DNA from: Crambe crambe
Lineage: Eukaryota; Porifera; Demospongiae; Poecilosclerida; Crambeidae
NCBI GenBank assembly: GCA_963924555.1
Contig: OZ004584.1
Coordinates: 6,819,001 to 6,883,000, forward strand
DNA length: 64,000 nt
Reading direction: 5' to 3'
Part shown: piece by piece, positions 1 to 64,000 of the stretch
Layout: the number at the start of each line of letters is the position of its first letter
How positions within the stretch are numbered: the stretch's first letter is position 1
Notes under the pieces: model-generated
The model's input: only the letters and a program-made list of their open reading frames with translations
Database searches by the model: none
Told to the model about the DNA's origin: nothing
Made by a program: the position numbers and the translations under genes

Positions 1-2305
1 TATCCAGTGGAGGGTGCACTGGTTTTAGCAATGAGTATGTACCATCAATTGCTGTGGGAAAATCTTGTGAGTGGTGCTGAAAATTACCATAATTATGAAT
101 AATATTATGATGATATCATTGAAATACTTAGTTACTTCGATAGTTGAATATGCTATGTTTGGGGAAGAAGTAGGTCCCACTAAAAGAGTATTGTGTTGGC
201 TCACTCAGTGTAGGATTACTGCACAAATTCTACAAAAGGAATAAACAAATAAAAAAATTAACAATCATCAAACAAAAAACAACTTTGTAAAGTATAACAT
301 GAATTACCACTTTTTTCATTTCTTTCCTGTGATGTGAGTAGTAGTAAAGTATGAATGCCAACATCACTATCACTATGCTCATCACAACAGCTATAAAAAA
401 GTGGAAAAAGAACATCTTTGTCTATGCTAGCTAGCTCTAATGATATAGCTACTGTTTAGCTGTAAATCATATGTACCTATTCCAACAGGAACTGCAATTG
501 CTACCACATCAAGAGACTCAGTACTGCTTGTTCCTAATAATAGTATAAAAAGAATGTGTTATTAATACCATTATAGCTGTAGGAATAAACCTGCATGAAT
601 TAACATGTACAAAGTACAGCGCAGTAAAACAATAATATTTATGTAGCTACAGTTAACCCAATGCTGTATATAGCTATTGGCTGATAGTAGCTAATTGCCC
701 ATATAAATTTTTGATTTTGAGAAGTTGATAAGATCAACTTTCAGTGTGAAACTATCAATAGCTATATGTATGTAATTGGATCATAACATCTGATAGCTTG
801 GTATAATAGCCTGTATAGCAAGCTAGACATCATGCAGACATTGCAATGCTCGCCCCATCAATCACTAGCTATGAGTTGAAGTCTTACACTTTCACTTTCA
901 CTAAAATCTATAATAAGTCCCTACTCACTTTCACTTGTGTATGTTTTCATTATCATAGTTGGGGGTGGGTGTGTAGTTGGGGTTGGGAGATACACCACTG
1001 TAAAATTACTTGAAATGTTTTCGTACTTCGTTTCAACATGAAGAACATAGTTTACAAGTAAGTATGAAATATTAGGACAGTTATCCGAACTCATGGTAGG
1101 ATTCTCATCATTGAGAATGAGATGTTCAATCCTGTTCAATGCATCAGTGAGATGTGCAGGAGAGCTGCAATGTGTACTACCATCTTCATACTGTATGTGA
1201 ACAGTCTGATTTTCAAAGCAGCTTGAAATCTGTGCAGAAATCACACACACATTCATTTTGGCCACTTCATATCAAAATTTAATTTTAGTTCCCTGGTCCA
1301 AACATTATGGAACTTAATTGATCTATAATGGTTGCTTTCACACATTAGTTGAACACATAAGTTATTATCTTTAGATAACAGTTTGTGAAATGGTGATCAA
1401 TTAATACTGGCTTCATAACATACAGCCATCATCAATCCAGAATCAGATAAGTGTACATCTGGACCATGAAGTCCAATGAAATGATCTACATCATTAAAGA
1501 TAGTTGTGATTAGCTACTATGAAAATTTATTGCTAACTGCTGGTTTAATAGTTACAAACTAACCATCATGAAATGCTGTATCTATTGGATCACTGGGAAC
1601 TCCTCGACCAACTACATTGACTGCTGTGATTATGAACTGATACTCCAGCACTGATCCAAGGACTGAGTTGCTGGTCAATAAAGTGTATTGAGGAGCTACA
1701 ATGGAGCATAGTCCAAGGTGGTGGAGTGGAGTCCTCTCTCCCTCAGATACATTGTACACCTCCACACAGAATGTCATGTCTGGGTCAGTGTCAGTGATAT
1801 CCAGGGAGAAGGGAGGTTGCCAAGTCAGGGTGATGGAGGAACAGTTGATGGAGATATTCACATCCTTGACCTCATCAAGCAGTCCTGTAAGTATCAAAAT
1901 TTTAATCATGACTAAGTGATGAGATAATAATTGCTTCTTTCCTTGTATCTGGATAAAGAATACTTCACCATAGAGTATTGTAGAATCACTTGTATTTAAG
2001 ACACTATGCCTTTCACATTGGACAATAGAGTTCTGAAATGTTTCAGAGCAGTTCAAATGCAGCATTCGGTGTTCAAATGTAGTGGTGATTCCAGATCCTT
2101 CCTTATTAATATCTGATGACATGTTATTCACTGTCCATCTGATTGCGTATACCTCTTGTAGTTTAAATTGACAATTGAATTCAGCCACTTGATGTAGGCC
2201 ACAAATCACCTGTGTCTGTAGCTGTGAAGGCAAGGAATTTGCTGTAGCTAATAATAATAATACCACTATCTTTCTTGTCATAGACATACTGAATTCTGTA
2301 GGCAA
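1..2305 (-). pseudogene. Unit A: Ig-FN3 receptor with tyrosine-motif tail, 3' end cut by window edge, one frameshift
   Basis: Exons on the minus strand: signal peptide + Ig-like 2305-1942 (starts possible at Met 2305, 2287 or 2281; the last, MTRKIVV, matches the paralogues best), FN3 1884-1564, linker 1485-1424, Cys-rich 1229-929, TM exons 533-477 and 390-308, tail exons about 212-136 and 76-<1. The Ig exon has the usual B-strand Cys (EFNC), Trp (IRWTVNN) and F-strand Cys (IVQCER) plus two extra Cys. The TM is followed by a basic stop-transfer (HHRKEMKK). The tail exon at 212-136 carries one extra base compared with D, N and S, so its YxxL/ITIM region shifts frame; the death domain would lie left of the window. 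It may be an inactive allele or a sequencing error. The family assignment is secure; loss of function is likely but rests on one base. Confidence 0.7.
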
Positions 2306-2382
2306 CAGTACTGAAATTAGTCAGTGACTGTATACTGTAGCAAAGCATACAATCACGATCACACAACAGCTTATTGCGAACG

Positions 2383-2445
2383 CGCTCATGCGTAGTTGGA
2401 ATACGGAGTCTAAAAGCTCGCAACCGGAAGTGACGTAATGGGCGC
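2383..2445 (-). promoter_or_regulatory. Candidate promoter of unit A with ETS/CRE-like composite site
   Basis: A small CpG-containing island lies 80-140 nt upstream of the unit A start codons in otherwise AT-rich DNA. ACCGGAAGTGACGTAA at 2423-2438 joins a perfect ETS core (CCGGAAGT) to a CRE-like TGACGTAA. The stretch GCGCTCATGCGT just downstream (about 2381-2392) resembles an NRF1 half-site. No TATA box is obvious. Assignment is by motif and position only. Confidence 0.45.
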
Positions 2446-2713: not shown

Positions 2714-4431
2714 AACCTGGTTTTAGTTGAATAATTGATGTTGTGTTGTTCCATTGGGTGTGGCTATTTCAGTTGGTGTTGAAAGAGTGATCTCCCCAAT
2801 GTCTTCATAGGCATGGTCAGGCTACAAGTGCAGAGATTAACCTATTGCATCTAAGGAGGCTGCAGCTCTCTAGCTTGTAGCTACCTCATCATTTTTGATC
2901 ACAGCATATGCACTATTCTGATGTGTATTTATCTCAGTAGCTGATGGTGTGGGTAGATCATGCTGACTGGCTGGAAATTCAGTAGACCTCTGTTATATGA
3001 ACCAGGAACAACAGTAACAACAACAACAACAACAACAACAACAAACAAATGGCAAAAACTATAGCTTAAAACCATGCATTAGCTATGTTACATACCTTTC
3101 CTTTCCTCTTATAATGGAATCGAAGGCAGAAACATAATGATGCACTTGATAACAGCAGAATATAACCACTGTGATGCTCAATACTGGAACATTCATTATC
3201 AAGATAATACTTAAAGTGTAGCTCCAACTATGTATTATACCTATCATTGTTGTGATTATAGCATCTGTATTAGAAGGAATACTAGTAGAAGAGTCTATAA
3301 TAATAATAAAACCATGTTAAAAATGTTTTATACATCGCTATACATAGCTAGTGACTAACTTATTTGTGAGATCACCATATGAGTAGATCTGGAAATGTTT
3401 TCAATTGGGAAATACGTCACAATAAGACTATTGGATACAGTTCCACCATCAGTTTCCATATAAATAATGTAATTGTTTACAGATGCATCAAGACATCTGC
3501 TACAATTATGGATATTCTCTCCATTCAAAATGAGGAAATGTAACTGATTCAACTCAGGGGTTACTTGTGTACTGGGCAGCTGCAGTTTGTGTTATCATAG
3601 TAATCAAAGTGGAGAGTTAGTTCTTGGAAGCACACAGATATCAACTGCATAACATCAATAGAATATACAGAATACAAGCACCATTAGCTATTTTACCAAT
3701 GATATATTCAGCTCCAGTTCAAAATTGATCCAACTTGCTCCATACAGTTGTACAATGCCTAAAATTATTTAATCTAAAAGTAAAAATTAATGCTATTATT
3801 AAGTATTATCTATTACCATCATAAAATTCTACATTCCTTGGATCAATGAACTGATAGTGAAGCATCAGTCCAGAGTTGTTGGTAGGTATTGTGTAGTGAG
3901 GAGTCACAATGGAACATTGTCCAAGGTGGTGAAGTGGAGCTCTCTCTCCCTCAGATACATTGTACACCTCCACACAGAATGTCATGTCTGGGTCAGTGTT
4001 AGTGATGTCCAGGGAGAAGGGAGGCTGCCAAGTCAGGGTGATGGAGGAACAGTTGATGGCTAACTCTCTTGAAGTATCCTGAATAAATCACAATGATCAG
4101 ATTATAGCTATGCTTTCCTTGTATGTTAAGATTAAAGGGATTTCCATATGAACGAGTTGAGTTCGCCAAAAGAAACACACTGGACTTATGAATTGTTTTG
4201 TCCAGCACTGCAGTATAACACTTCTGCAGATCTATTTATCACATCTCCATCCACTCCATCTTTAATAGTGGCATTGTTGAGATACCAATCAGTAAATGCT
4301 TGAATAGTGGTGCATCTGAACTCAGCTGTTTCATTTAAACCACATACCACCTCTGAGGTAACTTGCCCTGAGATGAATCCAAACTGCAACAGAGAAATAG
4401 AGGCAATGATAACCACTCTACTTCTTGACAT
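2714..4431 (-). pseudogene. Unit B: broken Ig-FN3 receptor, no death domain exon
   Basis: Signal peptide + Ig 4431-4118 (MSRSRVVIIAS start), FN3 4078-3817, Cys-rich about 3644-3360, TM exons about 3296-3241 and 3190-3100, tail exons about 2993-2890 (contains SAYAVI, an ITIM fit) and about 2828-2714 (HAYEDI). Damage: an in-frame TAA after GQNNS in the Ig exon, a frameshift before its last strand, an FN3 entry frame that does not match the phase-1 acceptor, a 39-nt in-frame loss that removes VTAVNVVGRGAPS from FN3, and a deletion in the last tail exon. No DD exon is recognisable between 2480 and 2700, where O and P have one. Tail exons match O/P most closely. A pseudogene is the best reading. 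Confidence 0.8.
3014..3045. repeat. (CAA)n in the intron after the TM exon of unit B
   Basis: About ten CAA triplets. The same intron carries CAA/CAG expansions in O (39417-39519) and, as its complement, in P (50917-50960). Confidence 0.9.
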
Positions 4432-5332: not shown

Positions 5333-8300
5333 TCAATGCTTCCTCCTCTCTTCTCCCAATGGAACCACATTGGAGTAAAATGTTGCATCAGGTCCAACTA
5401 CTTCAACTCTCGGAGTTAAAGGAGGAATCTCAGCATAAACTGGCTATTGAAACATAAAGAGAATGATAAATTCAATTATCATAGCTGTGTAGGTATTAGT
5501 CCATCATCACCTCTACTTTACCAACATCTTTAGTAATGGCATATGCACTGTTTTCCTGAACGCATATTTCTGGGTGATTTTGTCTATCTTGAGCAGTGGC
5601 CACCATTTCAGAAGATCTCTATAACGAATCATCAGAAAGTATGACTAACTTTGGCTTAAGATGATGTTATTTTTGTTGAGAAAGTATATAGCATTTGCAT
5701 GCATCCTTTCATCATGCCAATGGCAGCCATTTTGGTACACAATCCCCATAGAGCATAATACAAATTGTGCACCAAAATGGCCACCATTGGCATGCATAGT
5801 AAAAGGATACATTGTGAACACTCAGATCAACTGTAACTAGCTCCATTTGGAGCTAAAAATTGCTTTGAGTTCATCAGTAATTATAGCTAGCTAGCTCTTC
5901 TTGTAGCTATGGATACCTCTTCTCTTTGAGCATCCTTAAGCTTGATAACTGTGTACGCACTATTTTCATGAGTTCGTATCTCAAGGTTTATTACTTCACC
6001 AGATGATTTTTGGCCATGGTTCCTGCCTGTGGGAGTGTTGTAACATAGCATAAGTGAATCATCATGAATTTGAAAGTGCTATGTAGCTGTCACAATTTAT
6101 TGATCAACTGTCTAAGCTGTAGTGATATAAATGTAACTACCATTTTTCATGTGATGTAACCAATAGCAACAGCAAAATGTTGATAGCAGTAGAATGAATG
6201 CTAATATGGTCACCACTGCATGGAAATAATTATATGATATTCATGATAACAATAACAGTGACACGATTCTACCATAATATTTACCAATACCCACAGCAAT
6301 TATCACATTCAAATAGGAGGAATCTATAGAATAGAATATGACATACATTAGTCCATGGTAAGTTAATTACGATGACTAGTTATCAGAGCTACAGTTGCTT
6401 ACTGATTATAGTCGAAATGATCTTTTGTGTTGTCATATTAGTTGGGTTACTTTCACTTGGGAAGTACATCACAAGGATAACATTAGATAAACTTCCATCA
6501 TCAGTTTCCACATAAACAGTATAGTTGCTCACAGATGCATTGAAACATCTGCTACAGTTATTCTCATCATTGTTCAGAATGAGGTACTGCAACTGATTCA
6601 AACCAACTGAGCAGTTGCAATGAGTGTTATTGTCATAGTTAATGTGAACAGTTAATTCTTGGAAGCATACAGACGTCACCTGCAAGAGAATGAGTAGCTA
6701 GCATTAAACCCTTTTGACTAAGTTTTTTTTTTTTTAACATACCAAAGATATATTCAGCTCCACTTCTGAATTAAATTGTATTTGACCCACACTAAGGAAT
6801 ATCCCTGAATAAAATTAATCATCACAATAACAGTTAGTCACCTACATACATAATTATGTAGTACCCATTAGTTTCATTACCATCATAAAATTCTACATTC
6901 CTTGGATCACTAGGAGCCCCTCGACCTACTACATTCACTGCTGTGACAATGAACTGATAGTGAAGCATCAGTCCAGAGTTGTTGGTAGGTATTGTGTAGT
7001 GAGGAGTAACAATGGAGCATCGTCCAAGGTGGTGAAGTGGAGTCCTCTCTCCCTCCGATACATTGTACACCTCCACACAGAATGTCATGTCTGGATCAGT
7101 GTTAGTGATGTCCAGGGAGAAGGGAGGCTGCCACATCAGGATGATGGAGGAACAGTTGATGGAAGCATTCACTTCTCTCACTTTATCTAGTAGTCCTATA
7201 TGAATTAATCTACTATTACAGGACTAACATAATGATAAGTAATAGCTTTCCTTGAATGTGGACTGTAATTAAGTCACCATAAATGATACCAGAGCTTCAG
7301 GTGCGTAGCCAGGATTTTATCATAGGGGGTGCTAGCAAGAAATATCCGCGCGATTACGCTCGGAAAATTTTTATCCAGCCACGCCCACTTTCCCACTAAA
7401 CCGCGCCCACTAGATGCGACCTTTGAACTAATAGTAGCTAGCTATAGCGTTAGCAGAAGTTAGCAAGAGTAGTTTAAACAGTTTAGCTTAATTTGAGCTT
7501 GGTGGATCTGGGAGAAAATTATTAAGTAAGTACGTAGATCGTCTGTTAATAATTAGGTAGCTATTACACATCCGGTGCAGCTCAAAGGGGGTGCTCGAGC
7601 CCCCTGAGCCCCTCCCTGGCTACGCGCCTGGAGCTTATATTTGCTAAATCAAGTACCATACACTGAACTGTAACATTTTCATTCTCTTCTGTACAGTTCA
7701 TCTGAAATGCATCATTAACTTGATTGACACTGTCTCCCCAGTGAACATTTGTGAGGTATTCATATTGATGACTGTCCATTTTTCAAGTTGCAATGAAATT
7801 CAGCTATTTGATATAAACCACACACCACCTCTACATATTATAGCATATTCATTCAAAGAGTTGTACATAGTTACATTTTTATTGCTATACCAATACCTTT
7901 TCCTTCCCCTAACTCAATAAGTACTAGCATGAAAGCAAAATATCTTCCTACCATTACTATGAACTATTATTGAAGCTCAGAGATAGAAACAGTTTAGGAA
8001 ATGAAATATGAATGATGTAACCAACACTGAGCACAATAATTATTAGCTAGCTAGCTATACACCTTGTATTCGGATGTTGTACACATCACCAAGAACATCT
8101 GGTTCACTTGTATTGAAGATATGTTGTTTCTTGCACTGAATTGTAGAGCCTTCAAATGTCGGGGTACAGTTCAGATTAAGCATTTGATTTCCCATTGTTG
8201 TATAAACTCCTTCATTTATCCTTGAGCTATTGTTGATTGTCCATGCTATTGAATATACATCCAGTGGGTTGAAGTCCAAGGAACAGTTTAATATAACATG

Positions 8301-8486
8301 TTGATGCAGACCACAAATCACCAATGATGCTATCACCATAATAAGACCAGTAATTTTAGCTAATAGCTAGCTAGCAGCTAACTTCATTAGGTAGCTACTT
8401 GAACTATAAGCCATACCTTTACTGATGTCAACCACATTAATCAATATTAAAATGATTGCCAATAATATGGTGGCACATTCATCCAT
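5333..8486 (-). CDS. Unit C: Ig-FN3 receptor, short tail with ITIM/ITSM-type motifs, no death domain
   Basis: Exons: signal peptide 8486-8417 (MDECATILLAIIL..., phase 1), Ig 8329-8063, FN3 7195-6881, linker 6804-6743, Cys-rich 6679-6403, TM 6323-6285 and 6215-6141, tail 6026-5917, 5618-5511 and terminal 5443-5333 ending in TGA. Lengths sum to 1434 nt (477 aa). The Ig has LNC, W and QC core residues and a canonical CAAG|GT donor. The Cys-rich exon contains NNCSRC and many Asn-linked glycosylation sequons. Tail motifs: SAYTVI (ITIM consensus), SAYAIT (not a fit), PVYAEI (YxxI) and TFYSNV (TxYxxV, ITSM type). The tail stops before any DD. A second signal/Ig exon pair inside the first intron is ruined (7251-7954), so the working transcript should join 8063 directly to 7195, which the phases allow. 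Role as an inhibitory-type receptor is inference from motifs. Confidence 0.75.
7251..7954 (-). pseudogene. Alternative first-exon pair of unit C (signal peptide 2 + Ig 2), ruined
   Basis: A signal-peptide exon at 7954-7897 (MVGRYFAFMLVL...) is followed by an Ig-like exon 7830-7251. The Ig exon has lost about 28 nt near strand C, reads into TGA, and is split by a MITE at 7298-7630. The equivalent pair is open in unit M (32345-32722) and ruined in R (60116-60500). It shows the ancestral locus carried two signal/Ig modules in front of one FN3 exon. Confidence 0.75.
7298..7630. mobile_element. 333-bp MITE with CAGGYGCGTAGCCAGG termini
   Basis: Terminal inverted repeats CAGGTGCGTAGCCAGG (left) and CAGGCGCGTAGCCAGG (right, complement), flanked by a perfect 6-bp duplication GAGCTT at 7292-7297 and 7631-7636. 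The empty site is seen in M near 32385 and in R near 60158, so boundaries are exact. No coding capacity. The class II superfamily is not certain. Confidence 0.92.
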
Positions 8487-8671: not shown

Positions 8672-11600
8672 CTACACCAATTCTGATACTTGGGAATATT
8701 TTTTTGATAAAGTACATGCCAACTCATGCTCCTCTATATGACATAAAGCAGCAGGGATTTCTTTGAAGGGAGCTCTTCTCTTGAAGAAGTACTTCAAGGT
8801 CTCCTGCAAACATGCCTCATTGCTTTCATTGTTGGTGTAAATCTCATCCTCAAGATCCTCATCAATTCCTATCTTCAGTGCGAATTCACTCCACTTCCCG
8901 GCAATGGAATATAGATCATGAAACAAATCTTCTGCAGTCATGGGTGACTTTACTAAAAGTGTGAAGAAAGTCAACAGATATATTTTTCAGCCACTCCATA
9001 CTGAATCCAGTAACCTCGTAGCTAAATTTGGGTGCTACGTAAGACAGTTAAATCATTGAACATATGACTGATATTCTTTGTTGTTCACTGTAACAAAAAC
9101 ATGGGATTCTACTGCTTTGCAATCTTGGTAGCTATATATAAGGAGTGCTTGGGAAAAGGTACGTACAAGTTGTAAAAATCCTGCTAAAGTTTATAAATAG
9201 CTAGCTACTTAATAATCATGAAACCTAAAACTTTGAAACTGAAATTATTGATCTTAGTTCCATTTGAAGCAAAAATAATAGCTAATTGGATACCAATTAC
9301 ATCTCTAAAACTTATTTTCGCTCCCAATTGTATACAGTAGCTAAGGTCCTATAACACACCTGCTGGTTTTGGTTGTGCTTTCATCTCCTCTTTTTCCTTT
9401 GGTATTGATATTCCTGTGAATGGGACTATGTCTGAGTAAATGACGTCGTTCACTATTATGACACCAGCACTTGAATTAGGATCACTGGTATCTAACTGAG
9501 CATACTTGACCTGCAAAATTTAAAAGGATAGAGAGGTAGCTGATTTCAGATTGTGGGTACTAAATTTAATTATTTATTTAATTTAATTATTTATTAACTA
9601 AATAATTGTATGGCTAGCTATATCCAGTTTATTATTGTCGTTTTTGTTGTTGTTGTTGTTGTTGTTTGTAAATTTTATTATTATTGTGAAATTTTTGACT
9701 TGCAGGTACTAAAGTTGATGCCTCTCAAAATTCCCGAATATTAATACCTCTCTTTCATCTGGCATTGGTTTCTTATTTGGTAATGGTGCACTAGAAAATC
9801 TGATGTTCGCTACTTCATTATCAGCAGTTGAAGTAGATTCAGGATCATCAACTGGAGTGGATGAATCCTGCTAAAAAGATAATTATGTAATAGCTACTCC
9901 CATAATTTTTATGATTATTACATGTATCATACCTCATTACTGTGGACTTTGATGATCCGTTCTTCAACAGAAGAATCAGGACTACAATATGTAGAATTTC
10001 TTTTCAAAGTGAGCATTGACTCTTCTAGAGGCTGGTAATGTGAAAATTATGTGCAATCAAAAATTGAAGAAGTAGGGCTGCATACATGTGCATATAAGAT
10101 AAATCTTGTACCTTTCCATCGCTATCCAGTGGAGGGTGCACTGGTTTTAGCAATGAATATGTAGCATCAATTCCTGTTGGAAAATCTTGTGAGTGGTGCT
10201 GAATTTAGATCGATGAATTGAGTATGATGATATTAAGATAATTATCATCAAAATACTTAGTTACTTCGATGGTTGAATATGCTATGTCTGGGGAAGAAGT
10301 AGGTCCCACTAGAGAGTAATATGTTGGCTCACTCAGTGTAGGATTACTGCACAAATTCTACAAAAGGAAAAAATAACGAATAAAAAATCAATCATCAAAC
10401 AAAAAATAACTTTGTAAATACCGCTTTTTTCATTTCTTTCCTGTGATGTGAGTAGTAGTAAAGTATGAATGCCAACATCACTATCACAATGCTCATCACA
10501 ACAGCTATAAAAATGTGGAAAAATAACATCTATGCTAGTTAGCTAATAGCTGTAAATCATACCTATTCCAACAGGTACTGCAATTGCTACCACATCAAGA
10601 GAGTTGGTATACTCAGTACTGCTTGTTCCTACCACTAAAAGTAAAAAGAATGTGTCATTATTATTACCTGCAGGAATAAACCTGCATGAAGTTAACATGT
10701 AAAAAATACAGCGCAGTAATATTTATGTTCAGTTAACTCAATGCTGTGCTACTGGCTAATTGCCCAGATAAGTTTTTGACTTCGAGAAGTTGATAAGATC
10801 AATTTTCAGTGTGAAACGTACATAATGGGATCACATGATCATAACATCTGACAGTTTGGTATATAATAGTCTGACGTGTATAGCAACTAGACATCATGCA
10901 GCCATTGCAATGCAAATTGTTTATTATCACTATCTAATAGTCTTACACTTTCTCTAAAAGCTCTATAGTTAAGTCCCTACTCACTTTCACTTGTGTATGT
11001 GTTCATTGTCATTATAGTTGGGGGTGGGAGTGTAGTTGGGGGCGGGAATGTAGTTGGGGTTGGGAGATACACCACTGTAAAATTGCTTGAAATGGTTTCG
11101 TATTTCGTTTCAACATGAAGAACATAGTTTACAAATATGTATGAAATGTTGGGACAATTGCCTGAACCCATGGTAGGATCCTCATCATTGAGAATGAGAT
11201 ATTCAATCCTGTTCAATGCATCAGTGAGATGTGCAGGGGAGCTGCAATGTGTGTCATCTTCATACTCTATGTGAACTGTCAGCTCTTTGAAGCAGCTTGT
11301 TGATGACTGGATTATCTCAGCTGAAATCTGTGACAGTCAATGTAGCTAGCTAGAAATCTTAGATTGGCTAGATTTTAGCTCCCCATAAGATGAGTGGTCC
11401 AGCCATTAGCTATCACATTTTTAAGGTTAGCTATCTGAGTTTATTGAAACTCAAATGGTTGTTTTTACACAACACATGATAATTTCAGTTTGTGAATGGT
11501 AACCAATTTATACTAGTTACATAACATACAGCCATCATCACTCCTGAATCAGATAAGTGTACATCTGGATCATAAAGTCCAATGAAATGATCTACATCAT

Positions 11601-12356
11601 TGTGATTACTATGAGATGAGAATTTATTGGTTTAATGGTTACAAACTAACCATCATGAAACATTACATCTATAGGATCACTGGGAGCTCCTCGACCAACT
11701 ACATTCACTGCTGTGATTATGAACTGATACTCCAGCACTGATCCAAGGACTGAGTTGGTAGACAATATGTATTGAGGAGCTACGATGGAACATTGACCAA
11801 GATGGTGAAGTGGAGTCTTCTCTCCCTCAGATACATTGTACACCTCCACACAGAATGTCATGTCTGGGTCAGTGTTAGTGATGTCCAGGGAGAAGGGAGG
11901 CTGCCAAGTCAGGGTGATGAAGGAACAGATAATGGAAACATTCACTTCTTTCACTTCATCTAGCAGTCCTATAAGTATCAAAAGTTTAATAATGACTAAG
12001 TGATGAGATAATAGTTGCTACTTTCCTTGTATCTGGACAAAGAACACTTCACCATAGAGTACTGTGGGATCACTAACATTAAAGAGATTATGTCTTTCAC
12101 ATTGGACTACAGAGTTCAAAAATGTTTCAGTACAGTTCAAATGCAGCATTCGGTGTTCTTATGTAGTGGTGATTTGAGATCGTTCTTTAATAATATTGTT
12201 TAATGAGATATTATTGACTGTCCACATGATTGAATAATCACCTATAGGTTTAAACTGACAATTGAATTCAGCCACTTGATGTAGGCCACAAATCACTTGT
12301 GATGACATGGAACTTTCTGTAGCTAACAATAATAATATCACTACCTTTATTATCAT
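8672..12356 (-). pseudogene. Unit D: Ig-FN3-TM-ITIM/ITSM-death domain receptor with one nonsense codon
   Basis: Twelve exons: signal + Ig 12356-12026, FN3 11968-11651, linker 11591-11530, Cys-rich 11327-10985, TM 10634-10563 and 10504-10422, tail 10357-10265, 10198-10112, 10031-9933, 9870-9748, 9510-9360, DD 8952-8672. Lengths sum to 2043 nt (680 aa). Tail motifs: TYYSLV (ITSM fit), IAYSTI (ITIM fit), ATYSLL (YxxL), VKYAQL and VIYSDI (both ITIM fits). The DD shows the family core: KWSEFALKIGID, ACLQETL, and a closing LACTLSKKY helix. The only lesion I see is TAA in the Ig exon (TTT in unit K), which would stop translation before the F-strand Cys. It is otherwise the clearest example of the full architecture, and S is its near-identical duplicate. 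Confidence 0.75.
9159..9166. other. GTACGTAC, possible MITE excision footprint in unit D
   Basis: Unit N carries a 108-bp MITE flanked by GTAC duplications at the equivalent intron position (34041-34156). D (here) and S (61701-61708) have GTACGTAC with nothing between, as a precise excision leaving both target copies would give. A chance tandem is possible. Confidence 0.4.
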
Positions 12357-13264: not shown

Positions 13265-14041
13265 TGACAACAATAAAATCCTCTTCTTGTAATGGAACCA
13301 AAGGAAAAACATAATGATGGACTTGATAGTAGCAGAATAAGCATTGTGAGGCTCATTAGCTACTGGAATATTATTAATGTATGATTGTAGTACTATCAGT
13401 ATTGCATCTGAATTAGAAGGAATGATAGTAGAAGAGTCCAAAACAATCATGTTGTTTGTTTGTTTTTATAGCTAGCTAGTGGCTAACCTGTTTTCAATTG
13501 GGAAATATGTCACAATAAGACTATTGGATACAGTTCCATCATCAGTTTTCATATAAATAGTGTAATTGTTTACAGATCCATCAAGACATCTGCTACAGTC
13601 ATAGATACTCTCTCCATTCAAAATGAGAAAATGTTGCTGATTCAACTCAGGAGTTACTTGTACTGGGCAGCTGCAGTTTGTGCTATCAGTTAGCTCTTGG
13701 AAGCACAGATATCAGCTGCATAATAATTTAAACTAATAGCATTTAAGTATACAAAGTGGGGTCACTGAAATTAAAGAGATTATGTCTTTCACATTGAACT
13801 ACTGAGTTCTTAAATGTTCAGATGCAGTATTTGATTTTCAAGCGTAGTGGTGATTCCAGATTCACCTTTCTTAATGCCTGATGAGACGTTGACTGTCCAC
13901 GTACGTAATGATATAGCTAATAACCTATAGGTTTAAACTGACAATTGAATTCAGCCACTTGATGTAGGCCACAAATCACTTGCGATGGCATAGAATTTTC
14001 TGTAACTAATAATAGTAATACCACTATCTTTATCATCATAG
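13265..14041 (-). pseudogene. Unit X: remnant of a receptor gene (Ig, Cys-rich and TM exons only)
   Basis: From 14041 down: a signal/Ig exon close to those of D/K/N (MMIKIVVLLLLVTENSM start) with an in-frame TAG after PIGY, ending near 13750; a Cys-rich exon at about 13735-13490; a juxtamembrane exon about 13440-13385; and a TM exon about 13355-13270. FN3, linker, tail and DD exons are absent. The Cys-rich and TM parts resemble B/O rather than D. It looks like two partial copies joined by deletion. Confidence 0.75.
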
Positions 14042-17870: not shown

Positions 17871-18142
17871 TGTTAAATGAACCATACTGCACATGTGCTA
17901 AAAGTAATGATCTTCATACCAGCTGAATAGAGTCTGAGTTTCTTTGCCCACAACCTGACTAATTATAATTATGGCAGTATCTATAACTGTTATGCACTTG
18001 ACTTACTTTAATTGTGGATAATTTCCCTTCAGAACGATAATTATTATAAACATGTTTATTCTTTGTGATAAAGGTCAAATGGTCAAATAGCTAATTATGG
18101 AAATAACTGAGTCAGGACATTGTACACACTGAAATTGAAAAT

Positions 18143-20066: not shown

Positions 20067-20071
20067 GTCTC

Positions 20072-38766: not shown

Positions 38767-41969
<3,203 letters not shown>

Positions 41970-45083: not shown

Positions 45084-45112
45084 CTCCTCCCCACTAAGCA
45101 TACAAGTCACAC

Positions 45113-49107: not shown

Positions 49108-49129
49108 CAGATCCCGTCTCGTCGCCAGA

Positions 49130-49345
49130 TGTGATGTTCTCCAATAGTATCACAATGTTAATTAGCAATAACTTCTTATTATTCAGCTGACAGTATAAAC
49201 TATTGACAAAAATCAGATCAAACCAGCCAGCGACTGGAAGTGATACAGAGGTTAAATAAGCTAGAGCTAAGAGCTATAGCGCAATGCGCTAGCTGGACAA
49301 AACACAATACTGAGCATGCTCATAAATTGTTCCAAAGTTACCACA
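49130..49345 (-). repeat. 5' LTR of the Gypsy element
   Basis: 216 bp; should contain the element's promoter, read on the minus strand. Copy of 44868-45083. Confidence 0.95.
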
Positions 49346-50111
49346 CTTGGGGAAATAAATTATGCCTATAAAAGAGAATTTAGAATAACAACTGTTTATA
49401 ATCCTATTCTAATGTTGCAAACTGTGACTCAAAAAATAACCTAAACATCTAATTGTAGAGGCCATATGTTATTCTGAATTATAGAGACATCTTTTTTTTT
49501 TAAGTAATGTAGATTGATTTATTTTCTTGGTCTTGTTCAATAATAAAAATTAATCACATGACATTTAAATTTTAATACCTTGTACAAGTATTAGCTACAG
49601 GTAAGCTGTAACAATGAAAATAATTTAACATGTAAACATTTTACGTATATCTAACGAAAACTTCCCAGTTTATGGTATAGTCGTAACTGACAGCAACTCT
49701 TAATAGTTGCTATAATTATATTCATAGAAGATCCCTTTATGATTAACTGTGGCTATTATTAATAGCTAATCCTATTCTTTCTTTGCACAGGAGACCTCTC
49801 CTTACCCACTGGTCTCAGGAGTTACTGTACATGTCAGAGCATATCATAATGAAACTAATTGCTGCTGCTCACTAAATGACACAAATGTCAACGAATTTGA
49901 GTTTCACAGTGACAACTGTAGTTGTCTTATTCCATCCACAAATTATACCATATATGTAGATTGAATACATGGACTATGGACTCGTGTCCAATCACCTCTT
50001 TGTTATCCCAACTGAAAAATGTGAAAATATGACTCAACTTGAACCAACTAGCATTAGTTCTACAATTGTTACATCAACTTCAACTTCAGGTATATGACAT
50101 GTAGCTCTCTC

Positions 50112-50148
50112 TCCCCCACCCCCCCCCCCCCCCCCCCAAAAAAAAAAA
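50112..50148. repeat. Poly-C/poly-A tract in unit P
   Basis: The mirror counterpart of 40229-40275 in O, just after the Cys-rich exon. Confidence 0.95.
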
Positions 50149-50374
50149 TCCCTACATGTAATCAATATTATAGCTTTCTCCTAGTCCTCATTATTGTGTG
50201 CTATAGCTATAAAAATTTAGGAAATATTATTAACTAGCTAGCTCCCAATTAAGACCATGGATAAAATCAATGTGTCGTAATTGTCAGCATTTTTTAATGA
50301 GCCCCCATCCCCCCAAATTGTGGTGGTGTCTCAGTGATGCATGGCACCTATAGCTATAGGGCTAGGCAGCTGCT

Positions 50375-50600
50375 CAGTACAAGTAACCCCTGATTTGAAT
50401 CAGCAACATTTTCCTCATTTTAAATGCCACAAGTATCTACGTATAGCTAACTGTAGCAGATGTCTTTATGCATCTGTAAACAATTACACTATTAAATTTT
50501 ATATGAAAACTGATGGTGGGACTGTATCTTATTGTGACAGATTTTCCAATTGAAAACAGTTACAAATCTACTCATATGGTGATCTCACAAACAAGCTAGT
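50375..50600 (+). pseudogene. Decayed B-type Cys-rich exon inside a P intron
   Basis: Matches the relic at 39815-40020 in O. Fragments NCSRC, YASVNNYT and KTDGGTVSY are readable, then a stop. Not bounded by usable splice sites in the right phase. Confidence 0.65.
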
Positions 50601-51625
50601 CACTCAGCTAGCTATTATTATAGCTACATATAATTTTTTAACATGATTGTTTTGTAATTATTATAGACTCTTCTACTAGTATTCCTTCTAATACAGATGC
50701 TATAATTACAACAATGATAGGTACGTACGTATGATACATAGTTGGAGCTATATACACACTTTAAGTATATCTGAATGTTGCAGTATTGAGCATCACAGTG
50801 GTTATTCTGCTGCTATCAAGTGCATCATTATGTTTCTGCCTTTGGTTTCATTACAAGAGGAAAGGAAAGGTAGCTAATGGGTTGAATCTTTTTTCAATTA
50901 TAGTTTTTGCAGTATTTATTGTTGTTGTTGTTGTTGTTGCTGCTGCTGCTGCTGCTGCTGATACGCCTATAACAGAGGTCTACTGAATTTCCAGCCAGTC
51001 AGCATGATCTACCCGCACCATCAGCTACTGAGATAAATACACATCAGAATAGTGCATATGCTGTGATCAAAGATGATGAGGTAGCTACAAGCTAGGGAGT
51101 TGCAGCCTACAGCTAGATACAATTATTATTAAGCTAATTTCTGCACTTTTATAGCCTGACCATGCCTATGAAGACATTGGGGAGATCACTCTTTCAACAA
51201 TACCAACTGAAATAACTACACACAATGATGTATCCATGATTCCATTGGAGGAGAACACAACATCAATTATTCAACTGAAACCAGGTTGATAATGGCTATG
51301 CTGCTTGAAGCTATAGTGTAACTATCTATTAATTTTTACAGAAACTGATAAAAAAAGTGCAAAAATTTCTGTTGTTAACCTGATGAACGATCTTTCACCA
51401 ATTGCTCACAAGTGGAGGGAGTTTGCCACTAAATTAGGAATTGTTGCAGATAATATTCCTAAATTCACCAAGGATGACACTAATGAAGCATGCCTGGAAG
51501 CCACAGTAGAATTATTTTTCACCATTAACTCTCATAATTTGGCTGATATCACTGATACCTTGAATAACATGGAAGAATATGAAGTGGCTAATTATTTAAC
51601 CAGAAAATATCTTTCATGTGACTAA

Positions 51626-56865: not shown

Positions 56866-56969
56866 CATTGTTGGTCACTTACTCACTTTAAATCTGAATC
56901 TAAAATCAATCATCACAATAACAGTTAGTCACCTATACATACATATGTAGTGCCCATTAGTTTCATTAC

Positions 56970-57780
56970 CATCATAAAATTCTACATTCCTTGGATCACT
57001 AGGAGCCCCTCGACCTACTACATTCACTGCTGTGACTATGAACTGATAGTGAAGCATCAGTCCAGAGTTGTTGGTAGGTATTGTGTAGTGAGGAGTCACA
57101 ATGGAGCATCGTCCAAGGTGGTGAAGTGGAGTCTTCTCTCCCTCAGATACATTGTACACCTCCACACAGAATGTCATGTCTGGGTTAGTGTTAGGGATGT
57201 CCAGGGAGAAGGGAGGCTGCCAAGTCAGGGTGATGGAGGAACAGTTAGTGGAGATGTTGACTTCCTTCACTGCATCTAATATCCCTATTAGATCAAAATA
57301 AAATAATAATAACAACAATGACATCATTCATCAGCAACACAATAACAATGACGATTACAACAACAGCAACAACAATAACAATAACAACAGCAGCAACAAT
57401 GTTGATGACAACAATGATGATAATAGCAACAAGGGTAACAATTTACTTTCCTTGTATCTGAACTTGGAAAACATCACCAACAACATTAGGTACACTTGGA
57501 TCAAGAACATTTATTTCTTCACACTGAACTGTGGAGTTATCTAATTCTTCAGTACAGTTCAGAGAGAGAATTCGACCATCTGGTGTTTTATCACTTCCAC
57601 TGTATATCTCATTATTGATGGTCCATATTATGTTGGCATCAGTCAGTTGTGTGGAGTCCAAGGAACATCAAATTCAGCTCGTTGATGTAGACCACATGTT
57701 ATCACTGACACACCCTGCACTGCTTCATCACTAAAAATGACCAGAAGATAGATCACTAGTATAGCTCTAGTATATCTCAT
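56970..57780 (-). pseudogene. Unit Q: 5' fragment of a receptor (signal/Ig and FN3 only)
   Basis: Signal + Ig 57780-57451 (MRYTRAILVIYLLVIF start, related to H) and FN3 57284-56970. One base is missing at AEFD compared with H (AEFEC), which removes the B-strand Cys and shifts the frame. FN3 is open and ends in a normal G|GT donor, but no linker, Cys-rich, TM or tail exon follows. A 57301-57432 stretch of imperfect AAC/AAT triplets fills the intron. Confidence 0.75.
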
Positions 57781-58354: not shown

Positions 58355-61032
58355 TCAATGCTCTGGAACCACATTTGAGTAAAATGTTGCATCAGGTCCA
58401 ACTATTTCAACTCTTGGAGTTAAAGGAGGAATCTCGGCATAAACTGGCTATAATGTGGAAACATGAGAGACAATCAACATCAATAATTCATTTAACTAGC
58501 TAATAGTCACCATCACCTCTACTTTATCACTATCTTTAGTGATGGCATATGCACTGTTTTCTTGAACTTGTATTTTTGGGTCATTTTGTCTCTCTTGGGC
58601 AGTAGTTATCACTTCAGAAGATCTCTGCATGAGGATGATGAATTCATCATGAAGTATGACAACACTTTATTAAGATGGTCACTATAATTATTATTATAAC
58701 TTTTTTTCTGAATAGACCTTAAGGAAAAGGAAGACAATAAACTCAGTGATTGTTGCTCTGAGGCTCCAATTTCATAGAATAATAATGCTCTTAATCAGTC
58801 ATACCTCATCCTTAAGCTTGATAACTGTGTACGCACTGTTTTCATGAGTTCGTATCTCTGGGCTTATTACTTCATAAGAGGATTCCTGGCCATGGTTCCT
58901 GCCTATAATCACATAATAATATATTATAGAATTAAAGTAAGAGAATCCTCATGATAGCTATAATTGAGAGAAACTATTATTTATGGTAATCACTAACTAT
59001 CTAAGCAAGTATTATAATAGTTACCACTTTTCACATGATGTAACCAATAGCAACAGCAAAACGTTGATAGCAGTAGAATGAATGCAAGCATGCTCATCAC
59101 TGCATGGTAAGGTAACAAATTAATAGCAGTGAACGACAAGATTTTACAAACAACATAATATTTACCAACACCCACAGATACTGCAATTACCACATTCAAA
59201 TGCTCGGAAGAAGTAGAGTCTACACATGAATAGTAAGTGCAATAACTATCATAGCATCATAGCACAACAGCTGCTTACCAACTATTGAAAAGCTTTCTTG
59301 TGTTATCTTATTAGTTGGGTTGCTTTCACTTGGGAAATACATCACAAGAATAACATTAGATAAACTTCCACCATCAGTTTCCACATAAACAGTATAGTTG
59401 CTCACAGATGCATTGAAACATCTGCTACAGTTATTCTCACCACTGTTCAGAATGAGGTATTGCAACCGATTCAAGTCAGTGGTGACTTGTGCTGGGCAGC
59501 TGCAATGTGTGTTATCATCATCGTAGTCAAAGTGAATAATATATTCTTGAAAGCATACAGATGTTACCTAAATAGAACGAATATCATTATTAAAGGTATC
59601 AATAATCATGATCACATACCAAAGATATATTCAGCTCCAATTCTGAATTAAACAGTTGCTGTATTTCTCCCTCAAAAATGAATATTCCTGAATTAATTTA
59701 GCAATCATAATACCAGCTAGCAGCTATTGTAGTACCCATTAGTTTCATTACCATCATAAAATGTTAGATTCCTTGGATCACTAGGAGCCCCTCGACCTAC
59801 TATATTCACTGCTGTGACTATGAACTGAAAGTGAAGCATCAGTTCAGAGTTGTGTCTGAAGTTGTTGGTAAGTATTGTGTAGTGAGGAGTCACAATAGAG
59901 CATCGTCCAAGGTGAAGTGGAGTCCTCTCTCCCTCAGATACATTATACACCTCCACACAGAATGTCATATCTGGGTCAATATTAGGGATGTCCAGGGAGA
60001 AGGGAGGCTGCCACATCAGGGTGATGGAGGAGCAGTTAATGGAAACATTCACTTCTCTCACTTTATCAAGTAGTCCTATATGAATTAATCTGCTATTACA
60101 GGACTAACATAATTCCTTGAATGTGGACTGTAATTAAGTCACCATAAATGATACCAGAGCTTAAATTTGCTATATCAAGTACTGTACACTGAACTGTAAC
60201 ATTTTAATTCTCTTCTGTACAGTTCATCTGAAATGTATGATTAACTTGATTGACACTGTCTCCTCCAATGAACATTTATGAGGTATTCATATTGGTGACT
60301 GTCCATTTTATTGCAGGTAGAGCTAGAGATGACTTATCCAAGTTGCAATGAAATTCAGCTATTTGATATAAACCACACACCACTTCTAGCATATTCATTC
60401 AAAGAGTTGTACGTAGCTACATTTTTATTGCTATGCCAATACCTTTTCCTTCTCCTAACTCAATAAGTACTAGCATGAAAGCAAAATATCTTCCTACCAT
60501 TACTATGAACTATTATTGAAGCTCAGAGATAGAAACAGTTAGGAAATGAAATATGAATGATGTAACCGTATACTGAGCACAATGATCATTAGCTAGCTAG
60601 CTATACACCTTGTATTTGGATGTTGTACACATCTCCAAGAACATCTGGTTCACTTGTATTGAAGATATGTTGTTTCTTGCACTGAATTGTAGAGCCTTCA
60701 AATGTCTGAGTACAGTTCAGATTAAGTATTTGATTTCCCATTCTTGTATGAACTCCTTCATTCATCCTTGAGCTATTATTGATTGTCCATGCTATTGAAT
60801 ATACATCCAGTTGGTTGAAGTCCAAGGAACAGTTTAATATAACATGTTGATGCAGACCACAAATCACCAATGATGCTATCACCATAATAAGACCAGTAAT
60901 TTTAGCTAATAGCTAGCTAGCAGCTAACTTCATTAGGTAGCTACTTGAACTATAAGCCATACCTTTACTGATGTCAACCACATTAATCAATATTAAAATG
61001 ATTGCCAATAATATGGTGGCACAGTCATCCAT
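58355..61032 (-). CDS. Unit R: Ig-FN3 receptor, short tail with ITIM/ITSM-type motifs, intact
   Basis: Exons: signal 61032-60963 (MDDCATILLAIIL), Ig 60875-60609, FN3 60075-59752, linker 59687-59620, Cys-rich 59567-59279, TM 59219-59166 and 59099-59025, tail 58902-58805, 58624-58517, terminal 58447-58355 with TGA. Sum 1446 nt (481 aa). Motifs: SAYTVI (ITIM), SAYAIT (no fit), PVYAEI and TFYSNV. The Ig is nearly that of C. FN3 carries three extra codons in the loop after TNNF compared with C. The second signal/Ig pair in its first intron is ruined, so the Ig exon must splice straight to FN3. Direct duplicate of C. Confidence 0.78.
60116..60500 (-). pseudogene. Ruined second signal/Ig pair of unit R
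   Basis: Signal exon 60500-60443 is open; the Ig exon 60385-60116 has TAA after MNTS and another TAA at EEN. C has the same pair with other lesions (a deletion, a MITE), so the two copies decayed at least partly on their own after duplication. Confidence 0.75.
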
Positions 61033-61213
61033 CAATAACCTCAGTAATGATAGCTAGTAGCTATAGCTAACTACATCATTATCATAGCAAAACTATAGTG
61101 TGCTATATTTGGAGTTGCCACAACTGTTTGTATAAAATACATGACTTGTCATCAAAACAAAAATATATATACTAAACTACCTAACTAATAATGACTGCAA
61201 ATGTCCTAGCTAG

Positions 61214-63875
61214 CTACACCAATTCTGATACTTGGGAATATTTTTTTGATAAAGTGCATGCCAACTCATGCTCCTCTATATGACATAAAGCAGCAGTGAT
61301 TTCTTTGAAGGGAGCTCTTCTCTTGATGAAGTACTCCAAGGTCTCCTGCAAACATGCCTCATTGCTTTCATTGTTGGTGTAAATCTCATCCTCAAGATCC
61401 TCATCAATTCCTATCTTCAGTGCGAATTCACTCCACTTCCCGGCAATGGAATATAGATCATGAAACAAATCTTCTGCAGTCATGGGTGGCTTTACTAAAA
61501 GTGTGAAGAAAGTCAACAGATATAATTTTCAGCCACTCCATACTGAATCCAGTAACCTCGTAGCTAAATTTGGGTGCTACGTAAGACAGTTAAATCATTG
61601 AACATGTGACTGATATTCTTTGTTGTTCACTGTAATGAAAACATGGGATTCTACTGCTTTGCAATCTTGGTAGCTATATATAAGGAGTGCTTGGGAAAAG
61701 GTACGTACAAGTTGTAAAAATCCTGCTAAAGTTTATAAATAGCTAGCTACTTAGCTAATAACCATGAAACCTAAAACTTTGAAACTGAAATTATTGATCT
61801 TAGTTCCATTTGAAGCAAAAATAATAGCTAATTGGATACCAATTACATCTCTAAAACTTGTTTTTGCTCCCAATTGTATACAGTAGCTAAGGTCCTATAA
61901 CACACCTGCTGGTTTTGGTTGTGCTTTCATCTCCTCTTTTTCCTTTGGTATTAATATTCCTGTGAATGGGACTATGTCTGAGTAAATGACGTCGTTCACT
62001 ATTATGACACCAGCACTTGAATGAGGATCACTGGTATCTAACTGAGCATACTTGACCTGCAAAATTTAAAAGGATAGAGAGGTAGCTGATTTCAGATTGT
62101 GGGTACTAAATTTAATTATTTATTTAATTTAATTATTTATTAACTAAATAATTGTATGGCTAGCTATATCCAGTTTATTATTGTCGTTTTTGTTGTTGTT
62201 GTTGTTGTTTTTTGTAAATTTTATTATTATTGTGAAATTTTTGACTTGCAGGTACTAAAGTTGATGCCTCTCAAAATTCAGTACCTCTCTTTCATCTGGC
62301 ATTGGTTTCTTATTTGGTAATAGTGCACTAGAAAATCTGACGTTCGCTACTTCATTATCAGCAGTTGAAGTTGATTCAGGATCATCAACTGGAGTGGATA
62401 AATCCTGCAAAGAAGAAAATTATGTAATAGCTACTCCCATAATTTTTATGATTATTACATGTATCATACCTCATTACTGTGGACTTTGATGATCTGTTCT
62501 TCAACAGAAGAATCAGGACTACAACATGTAGAATTTCTTTTCAAAGTGAGCATTGACTCTTCTAGAGGCTGGTAATGTGAAAATAATGTGCGATCAAAAA
62601 TTGAAGAAGTAGGGCTGCATACATGTACGTATAAGATAAATCTTGTACCTTTCTCTTGCTATCCAGTGGAGGGTGCACTGGTTTTAGCAATGAATATGTA
62701 GCATCAATTCCTGTTGGAAAATCTTGTGAGTGGTGCTGCATTTAGATCGATGAATTGAGCATGATGATATTAAAATAATTATCGTCAAAATACTTAGTTA
62801 CTTCGATGATTGAATATGCTATGTCTGGGAAAGAAGTAGGTCCCACTAGAGAGTAATGTGTTGGCTCAATCAGTGTAGGATTACTGCACAAATTCTACAA
62901 AAGGATAAATAAAAAATCAATCATCAAACAAAAAACAACTTTGTAGCTAAGTACCGCTTTTTTCATTTCTTTCCTGTGATGTGAGTAGTAGTAAAGTATG
63001 AATGCCAACATCACTATCACAATGCTCATCACAACAGCTATAAAAGTGTGGAAAAATAACATCTATGCTAGCTAGCTAGCTAATAGCTGTAAACCATACC
63101 TATTCCAACAGGCACTGCAATTGCTACCACATCAAGAGAGTTGGTATACTCAGTACTGCTTGTTCCTACCACTAAAAGTAAAAAGAACGTGTCATTAATA
63201 TCATTATTATTACCTGCAGGAATAAACCTGCATGAAGTTAACATGTAAAAAATACAGCGCAGTAATATTTATGTTCAGTTAACTCAATGCTGTGCTACTG
63301 GCTAATTGCCCAGATAAGTTTTTGACTTCGAGAAGTTGATAAGATCAATTTTCAGTGTGAAACGTACATAATGGGATCACATGATCATAACATCTGACAG
63401 TTTGGTATATAATAGTCTGACGTGTATAGCAAACTAGACATCATTCCGCCATTGCAATGCAATTGATTGTTTATTATCACTATCTAATAGCCTTACACTT
63501 TCTCTAAAAGCTATAGTTAAGTCCCTACTCACTTTCACTTGTGTATGTGTTCATTGTCATTATAGTTGGGGGTGGGAGTGTAGTTGGGGGCGGGAATGTA
63601 GTTGGGGTTGGGAGATACACCACTGTAAAATTGCTTGAAATGTTTTCGTATTTCGTTTCAACATGAAGAACATAGTTTACAAATATGTATGAAATGTTGG
63701 GACAATTGCCTGAACCCATGGTAGGATCCTCATCATTGAGAATGAGATATTCAATCCTGTTCAATGCATCAGTGAGATGTGCAGGGGAGCTGCAATGTGT
63801 GTCATCTTCATACTCTATGTGAACTGTCAGCTCTTTGAAGCAGCTTGTTGATGACTGGATTATCTCAGCTGAAAT
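61214..63875 (-). CDS. Unit S: DD-type receptor, 5' part beyond the window
   Basis: Exons present: Cys-rich 63875-63533, TM 63171-63100 and 63037-62955, tail 62894-62802, 62735-62649, 62568-62470, 62404-62285, 62056-61906, DD 61494-61214. Linker, FN3 and signal/Ig exons lie to the right of 64000. All nine exons are open and in phase. Motifs: TYYSLV in the homologous exon of D corresponds here to TxYSLV, then IAYSTI-type, ATYSLL, VKYAQL and VIYSDI. The DD contains KWSEFALKIGID and LACTLSKKY. Near-identical to D across about 3 kb, without D's nonsense region in view. Confidence 0.8.
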
Positions 63876-64000
63876 CTGTGACAGTCAATGTAGCTAGCTA
63901 GAAATCTTAGATTGGCTAGATTTTAGCTCCCCATAAGATGAGTGGTCCAGCCATTAGCTATCACATTTTTAAGGTTAGCTATCTGAATTTATTGAAACTC

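Follow-up and report, generated by a model that had tools for sequence, protein, structure and literature searches.

What a demosponge does with a long tandem series of genes resembling immune receptors is the question raised by this locus. Sponges discriminate self from non-self. Working from the letters of the window alone (the whole 64,000-nucleotide stretch analysed here), the initial annotation described a tandem cluster of Ig-FN3 receptors from a basal animal, whose tails are of ITIM/ITSM type and come with or without a Death domain. That animal is the demosponge Crambe crambe, and the description is supported by the exon order in tblastn searches, by open gene models, by a fold model of the Ig exon and by the tail motifs. 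We consider it reasonably probable (about 0.6) that the locus is a large complex of tandemly arranged genes for type I transmembrane (TM) receptors, whose likeliest job is recognition, either of self and non-self (tissue fusion or rejection) or of microbes. We liken this role to that of Hydractinia Alr, Botryllus FcoR and mammalian paired ITIM receptors, and the array is a candidate for the self/non-self receptors of sponges.

The units follow one exon plan. When 18 exon templates were compared with the window by tblastn, we found 14 FN3 exons and a repeated order, Ig-(Ig2)-FN3-Cys-TM-tyrosine exons-(DD), in agreement with the shared plan proposed earlier. This plan consists of a signal peptide with Ig exon(s), FN3, a linker, a Cys-rich module, a split TM segment and tyrosine-motif exons, with or without a Death domain (DD); signal peptides and TM segments were assigned by eye. 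The earlier count of at least 16 units or fragments now stands at 17, pieces without FN3 included; the minus strand carries most of them, and a single unit is found on the plus strand. The array reaches far beyond the window, as 104 FN3-exon and 55 Death-domain-exon matches, broken copies counted, are spread across about 754 kb of one chromosome. A database search returned no homologue in any named organism, from a database that we suspect to be without sponges.

Three of the 17 units or fragments could be shown to be fully open in the window and one more across its edge; these open units have 9 to 12 exons each, with lengths divisible by three.

30592..33143, minus: K-type receptor, open, no DD; 10 exons, 1710 nt, 569 aa, one terminal stop; 33143-32813 (signal and Ig1), 32602-32345 (Ig2, GA donor), 32291-31977 (FN3), 31912-31845 (linker), 31788-31503 (Cys module), 31445-31392 and 31321-31247 (TM), tyrosine exons 31136-31024, 30873-30760 and 30687-30592
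26151..28343, minus: hybrid receptor, open, no DD; 9 exons, 1437 nt, 478 aa; Ig of C-type at 28343-28013 with a GA donor, followed by FN3 27955-27635; the K-type remainder has its linker at 27572-27505, Cys 27453-27189, TM 27121-27074 and 27022-26948, tyrosine exons 26838-26729, 26436-26329 and 26261-26151
14246..17885, minus: O-type receptor with Death domain, open; 12 exons, 1875 nt, 624 aa; 17885-17498 (signal and Ig, GA donor), 17447-17136 (FN3), 16784-16726 (linker, GC donor), 16554-16266 (Cys module), 16013-15951 and 15894-15820 (TM), tail 15750-15716, 15653-15630, 15577-15458, 15007-14918 and 14864-14720, Death domain 14520-14246
64904-61214, minus: C-type receptor with DD, whole gene open; 12 exons, 2040 nt, 679 aa; starts 0.9 kb beyond the window, first three exons outside
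61214..63875, minus: the nine 3' exons of this C-type gene in the window; Cys 63875-63533, TM 63171-63100 and 63037-62955, tail 62894-62802, 62735-62649, 62568-62470, 62404-62285 and 62056-61906, DD 61494-61214

The open O-type model requires a GC donor at the linker exon. An extra O-type exon near 15276 was left out because its inclusion broke the frame with every one of the three end points tried (15 stops). Ig, ITIM-type motifs and a Death domain in one polypeptide, as claimed earlier, are thus found in the open O-type (624 aa) and C-type (679 aa) models.

The tails of the open genes contain two to four ITIM/ITSM-type motifs each, among them SAYTVI (ITIM-type) and TFYSNV (ITSM-type) in the K-type receptor, SVYDDI, IIYAQL and VVYSDV in the O-type, and THYSLV (ITSM-type) with IAYSII, VKYAQL and VIYSDI (ITIM-type) in the C-type. 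Defined here as [VILST]xYxx[VIL], with T allowed at -2, ITIM-type motifs exceed the expectation from shuffles of six tails, the K-type tail having the weakest excess (p 0.0265); for the looser Yxx[VILM] pattern, the O tail was not significant in the shuffles (p 0.094). The Death domain of the O-type reached 28.0 bits as a single exon (Pfam cut-off 22.6) and 22.5, just under the cut-off, inside the full O protein. That of a fourth tail type (unit 38770..41990) scored 26.7 bits, above the cut-off, and C-type Death 17.2 and 16.9 bits, under it; the DD profile had no match among PDB sequences. An SHP protein (SH2-SH2-phosphatase) is the expected reader of ITIMs. On the minus strand of C18, two SH2 matches (6540796-6540942, covering the first 48 of 77 positions, and 6540260-6540487) lie in the same region as a phosphatase match (6539084-6539980), and these parts, if joined as we suppose, likely form one SHP gene.

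This architecture suggests how the receptors may work. The V-like Ig domain would bind a ligand on another cell or on a microbe, a Src-type kinase would phosphorylate the tail tyrosines, and the phosphotyrosines would recruit an SHP-like phosphatase through its tandem SH2 domains, so that the signal is inhibitory or tuning. Receptors with a Death domain might in addition build up an adaptor complex of the death or NF-kB type, and tolerance or attack would then depend on the balance between these two outputs.

One could assume instead that this is a family of microbe-sensing innate receptors, discriminating symbionts or pathogens by the same architecture and signalling with another ligand. Such a reading overlaps with our best explanation, whose ligand stays general, and taken on its own we find it rather unlikely. 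The copy number and shuffling would fit pathogen-driven birth and death, and Ig- and Death-domain genes of other sponges are described as shifting expression after microbial cues (PMC6208332). On the other hand, the sequence holds nothing that separates microbe sensing from allorecognition, and Botryllus ITIM-type Ig receptors and Hydractinia candidates are placed in histocompatibility loci (PMC12065747).

The AlphaFold2 model of an Ig exon is a V-type Ig fold, an Ig beta-sandwich with a C-W-C core. Pfam listed no Ig family in the K, hybrid and O proteins or in two single Ig exons, and Foldseek with the Ig model gave no match at E <= 0.001 (best 2.8e-3); we judge that the predicted fold outweighs the Pfam absence and places the domain in the Ig superfamily. 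The O-type FN3 scored 32.0 bits as a single exon and 28.4 in the full O protein (Pfam fn3 cut-off 25), while the K (17.4), C (20.6) and hybrid (20.7) FN3 were under the cut-off. The profile search suggested by the initial annotation was thus borne out for FN3 and Death in the O-type and Death in the fourth tail type, and failed for Ig, for FN3 of the K, C and hybrid types and for C-type Death. The Cys module is short and Cys/Asn-rich, and structure prediction gave it no confident fold.

Ig exons and tail types have been exchanged between units. The hybrid 26151..28343 demonstrates this recombination at the level of exon identity: its Ig is 0.84-0.97 identical to C-type and 0.53-0.64 to K-type, its Cys module 0.79-0.92 identical to K-type and 0.48-0.59 to C-type, and its FN3 is non-discriminating (0.88-0.90 and 0.86-0.89). 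Exon borders were projected by pairwise alignment, giving 36 models (17 K, 8 C and 11 O). The projection went wrong for the Ig exons of K units that have a single Ig, for the Y2 acceptor of several K units and for the tail wherever an O-like unit carries a different tail type, and misprojected rows were left out of both the broken and the open counts. In a hand-chosen sample of six of the eight C-type models (one carrying a nonsense codon) and nine of the 17 K-type models, dN/dS was 0.32 to 0.72 across exon groups, below 1 in every group; the models dropped beforehand were two frameshifted ones of C-type and eight of K-type, most of which were frameshifted or misprojected. These values therefore indicate purifying selection and no pervasive positive selection. 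The array had been called fast-evolving, which holds for duplication and module shuffling, but not for pervasive positive selection. As the latter is expected of many allodeterminants, the dN/dS of 0.43 for the C-type Ig exon counts against the recognition reading.

Purifying selection is also what one might expect if these were adhesion or tissue-organising receptors of the contactin/Dscam/LAR-like Ig-FN3 kind, bearing regulatory tyrosines, whose expansion had nothing to do with recognition; moreover, the FN3 profile is nearest to titin, Dscam, LAR-type phosphatase and contactins. We nevertheless find this improbable. Against it stand the roughly one hundred copies of the FN3 exon, the mixing of Ig and tail types and the presence of Death domains, since conserved adhesion genes are not usually so multiplied and mixed, and likewise the tails built around ITIM/ITSM-type motifs.

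Most of the remaining units bear stops, frameshifts or losses, so that broken copies, like the hybrid, had been correctly foreseen. That many units are broken counts against the recognition reading.

2..2281, minus: C-type unit, 5' part, running past the window edge; Ig 2281-1942, FN3 1884-1564, linker 1485-1424, Cys 1229-929, TM 539-477 and 390-308, tail from 229; frame lost at the first tyrosine exon through one additional base
2894..4428, minus: degenerate K-like unit; Ig, FN3 and Cys pieces, Y1
5336..8387, minus: K-type unit; signal-region stop, Ig2 broken, FN3 to Y3 kept
8672..12356, minus: C-type unit with DD; all 12 exons in frame, 2040 nt; one nonsense codon in the Ig exon
13490..14039, minus: fragment; Ig (with stops) and Cys module
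18152..20067, minus: degenerate unit; Ig pieces, FN3 in two frames, DD 18382-18152
20737..22394, minus: K-type 3' part, FN3 to Y3; Cys exon frameshifted; retroelement ORF immediately upstream; Ig exon not found by tblastn of the window
33410..37176, minus: C-type unit; Ig nonsense codon, Cys exon over two frames, DD exon open; TM exons not recovered
37343..37447, minus: Death-domain fragment (tblastn)
38770..41990, minus: O-like ectodomain with the fourth tail type; exon with NSAYAVI, exon with AYEDI, DD 39051-38770
43830..51625, plus: O-like unit split by an LTR retroelement; Ig, FN3, Cys module in two frames, TM, tyrosine exon, DD
56968..57762, minus: fragment; Ig pieces and FN3 (tblastn)
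58367..60933, minus: K-type unit, Ig1/Ig2/FN3/Cys/TM/Y1-Y3; signal-region stop, two stops in Ig2

Although the small number of units shown to be open and the retroelement insertions would suit a mostly relic, decaying tandem pseudogene array with few active genes, we hold this to be very improbable, as dN/dS stays below 1 throughout and four of the eight C-type models, over 276 kb of chromosome, are open over 12 exons, with exon length differences from the template that are all multiples of three. Three of these four (6602175, 6617770 and 6655821) have one projected non-consensus splice site, at a TM exon, which we take as a small misplacement; model 6883517 has AG acceptors and GT donors at every site except for GA after Ig.

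This GA was unforeseen; each of the four Ig template classes shows it, as does a copy that lies on a different chromosome. It replaces GT at 50 of 59 Ig-exon ends, 44 of which could be paired with a downstream FN3 exon (six remained unpaired).

32292..32344, minus: example of a GA-AG intron, last Ig exon to FN3; 53 nt, GAAAGC...CCAG

All 44 paired introns have A at +3, and A+4 and G+5 are conserved in 41 of them, with later positions varying; these are related copies, and hence the counts are not independent. Reading through the intron would be open in just 5 of 44. If a GT 27 nt upstream served as donor, 38 of 44 would stay in frame, at the cost of the last Ig strand, and the conservation of A+3, A+4 and G+5 would be left unexplained. 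A modified U1 is unsupported, because each of the three U1 snRNA genes found has a normal 5' end. A conserved GA-AG intron directly behind the last Ig exon is therefore probable as far as the alignments indicate, and presents a separate splicing puzzle.

A more specific version of the recognition reading, which we offer tentatively, is that the array might be the receptor side of sponge histocompatibility, with SHP tolerance and DD death signals on one chain and Ig exons swapped between tails, where the GA-AG intron may gate membrane receptor versus truncated Ig products. In any case, the mapped 754-kb array of ITIM-type V-like Ig receptors provides one chromosome interval to examine, at 6.58-7.34 Mb, for which a deposited alternate haplotype (GCA_963924525.1) is named in PMC12166358. 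If recognition is indeed its role, the ITIM-receptor logic of immune self-recognition would extend to a phylum near the animal root, and ITIM-type and Death-domain outputs would be united on one chain.

In searches of open-licence PubMed Central papers, no sponge ITIM or Ig-FN3-Death receptor family appears, and nothing there contradicts the earlier claim that no named family has the whole architecture. The sponge aggregation factor is described as tied to self/non-self (PMC8066720) and as an extracellular proteoglycan complex (PMC11999971). The Crambe units, in contrast, are predicted TM receptors. Sponge Ig-TIR receptors have an Ig ectodomain (PMC6208332). They resemble the Crambe proteins as sponge immune-type proteins with an Ig ectodomain, and differ in that Pfam listed no TIR in the K, O and hybrid proteins. 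In UNC5, a single chain carries an Ig ectodomain, one TM and, at the C-terminus, a Death domain, just as in the Crambe receptors with Death domains; UNC5 is not known to form a tandem array with ITIM tails, and its TSP1 and ZU5 domains were not listed by Pfam in the K, O and hybrid proteins. KIR, Siglec and SLAM (ITSM) receptors combine an Ig ectodomain, one TM and an SHP-read ITIM/ITSM tail. The Crambe receptors share this layout, but add FN3, the Cys module and Death-domain tails, none of which is known from mammalian ITIM receptors. LILRB is likewise described (PMC11999971) with an Ig ectodomain, one TM and an ITIM tail read by SHP phosphatases. Botryllus FcoR is a large linked multigene family with signal, variable-type Ig, TM and a long tail with canonical ITIMs (PMC12065747); it carries Sushi and C2 Ig domains, Sushi being placed between the V and C2 Ig. 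The Crambe array is similarly a linked multigene family with signal, V-type Ig, TM and ITIM-type tail; unlike FcoR, its proteins have FN3 and some a Death domain, and a Sushi domain was absent from the Pfam results for the K, O and hybrid proteins. Hydractinia Alr comprises 41 members, clustered Ig-superfamily receptors with ITIM/ITAM-type motifs on candidates (PMC12065747 and PMC11999971). Compared by description, both complexes are clusters of Ig-superfamily receptors with ITIM-type motifs. The Crambe array differs by its 104 FN3-exon matches, FN3 beside Ig and a Death domain in many tails, a domain that Alr is not known to have. By analogy, and as a likeness that implies no membership, the Crambe array would work like the Alr, FcoR and mammalian ITIM receptor complexes.

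Mapping of 18 exon templates to the window by tblastn revealed 17 receptor units or fragments, in line with the initial annotation, which had counted at least 16 sharing one exon plan. The exon order is repeated along the minus strand, with a single unit on the plus strand, and four types of tail can be distinguished, three of which we call K, C and O. The tails, the units open within the window and an example intron are as follows.

K tail: three tyrosine exons, Death domain (DD) absent
C tail: five tail exons and a DD
O tail: five tail exons and a DD
41990-38770, minus strand: fourth tail type, with an ITIM-type exon and a DD unlike that of the other tails
33143-30592, minus strand: fully open unit, K-type
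28343-26151, minus strand: fully open hybrid unit, C-type Ig and FN3 on a K-type tail
17885-14246, minus strand: fully open unit, O-type
32344-32292, minus strand: example of the GA-AG-type intron

Unit 64904-61214 is also open, across 12 exons, of which only the 3′ nine fall within the window. Apart from 41990-38770, which may or may not be open, the remaining units mostly bear stops, frameshifts, insertions or absent exons. In the plus-strand unit, the FN3 exon is separated from the Cys exon by a young-looking LTR retroelement with identical 218-nt direct repeats (44868-49347), which contains a 1294-codon ORF on the minus strand (45113-48997). Another retroelement-like ORF, of 686 codons (22695-24755, minus strand), lies upstream of a receptor unit devoid of the Ig exon.

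The window corresponds to C6:6819001-6883000, and we take C6 to be chromosome 4 (OZ004584.1). The genome searched amounts to 143.1 Mb in 119 contigs, both slightly below the figures given for C. crambe in the assembly paper, namely 143.20 Mb in 124 scaffolds; the paper also gives a 19.53-kb mitochondrial genome and states that haplotypic duplications were taken out and an alternate haplotype was deposited (PMC12166358). On contig C119 (19,532 nt), the COX1 match contains seven TGA codons. One ORF of this contig under code 4 was recognised as atp9, which we take to be a usual gene of demosponge mtDNA.

With the FN3 exon of a K unit as query, at least 150 genome matches were obtained, a lower bound given that 150 of 201 candidates were scored. 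The interval C6:6.586-7.340 Mb holds at least 104 of these (broken copies included, and two being halves of one exon), and the window accounts for 14. The DD exon gave 58 matches, of which 55 fall in that interval; one of the others is at C6:4.69 Mb and two are on C14. Within the 276 kb of the array that we read, window included, four of eight C-type models have a reading frame open over their whole length. Segments of 2.5 to 10.5 kb recur in the array at 83 to 99% identity, and we interpret them as the record of repeated segmental duplication.

Outside the array, a divergent copy at C10:3737110-3734638 (Ig 41%, FN3 51% identical) keeps the module order Ig, FN3, Cys-type. Two more FN3-exon clusters among the matches listed, C13:1635425-1904475 and C6:7719640-7855364, share about 34 to 43% identity with the query and possibly represent sister receptor arrays. 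Large clusters of Death-domain matches at C16:1254401-1465556 and C18:5248993-5589373 were not recovered with the window's DD exon as query.

Duplication and shuffling, and not pervasive positive selection, seem to be the source of diversity in the array, at least at the level of exon groups. Among 51 units tabulated, many without a full Ig exon, several Ig-exon clusters are combined with differing tails. Cluster a carries the C-type DD tail in eight units with an identified DD and a no-DD tail in one, the open hybrid of the window; the no-DD tail occurs with clusters a, b, c and e, and cluster d with three DD types. Measured per exon group and not site-wise, dN/dS was 0.32 to 0.72 for the C-type (six of eight) and 0.37 to 0.47 for the K-type from FN3 onwards (nine of 17). 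Divergence was highest in the C-type Ig exon (dS 0.28, dN 0.12), at a ratio of 0.43. These ratios argue that coding function is maintained.

A GA-AG intron is probable at the junctions between the last Ig exon and FN3, judging from the aligned exon ends. Where an Ig exon reached the template end (n=59), the next bases were GA in 50 cases and GT in nine; all nine belong to the IgK template class, and in seven an Ig2 exon comes next. For 44 of the 50 GA ends, pairing with a downstream FN3 exon was possible and gave introns of 40 to 252 nt which without exception end in AG, and 41 of these 44 have GAAAG at +1 to +5, which we take to be the usual donor consensus except for A at +2. The GA donor is kept in the C10 copy, whose Ig identity is 41%. 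An alternative GT exists upstream in 38 of the 44, and its use would remove the last Ig strand. Three U1 genes were found, all normal.

Each of the four open C-type proteins has four ITIM-type motifs, including one of the ITSM type; the O-type has three and the K-type two (T accepted at -2 of the consensus). When every tail was shuffled 2000 times, the observed count was reached in the C, O and K tails at frequencies of 0 to 0.001, 0.0025 and 0.0265, respectively; under the looser Yxx[VILM] pattern these were 0.0005 to 0.002, 0.094 and 0.0205. SH2 matches number 135 genome-wide. Since two SH2 stretches and then the best phosphatase match follow in order on one strand within 1.9 kb at C18:6540942-6539084, we read this putative gene as an SHP orthologue, the expected ITIM reader. 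An SH2 cluster at C5:1468041-1522148, where many matches are paired at about 0.4-0.5 kb, may be an expanded set of phosphotyrosine readers. Tyrosine-phosphatase matches form large clusters at C12:2514548-3217942 and C9:2619739-3405970.

The initial annotation knew no named family with the whole architecture, and our searches of open-licence papers likewise listed no such family for sponges. The sponge Ig receptors described in PMC6208332 comprise Ig-TIR genes as well as further genes with Ig domains, among them one that combines Ig and CARD domains; sponge self/non-self is linked to aggregation factors in PMC8066720. The receptors described here are of a known kind, tandem ITIM-type Ig receptors, but occur in a sponge and join FN3 and a Death domain on one chain.

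A varied outer domain, an ITIM/ITSM-type tail and a tandem arrangement that includes hybrids and dead copies make up the anatomy of paired or inhibitory immune receptors. What the sequence itself shows are the gene structures, the domains, the enrichment of motifs and the gene order of SH2 and phosphatase. If expressed, such receptors would bind a ligand and be phosphorylated on their tails, and would most likely act in fusion/rejection or in microbe sensing. The Death domain on the same chain suggests that, in some of them, recognition would also be coupled through DD signalling to a death or inflammatory pathway. The tail logic is the same as that of the Botryllus allorecognition receptors and of the candidate allorecognition receptors of Hydractinia, as these are described in PMC12065747.
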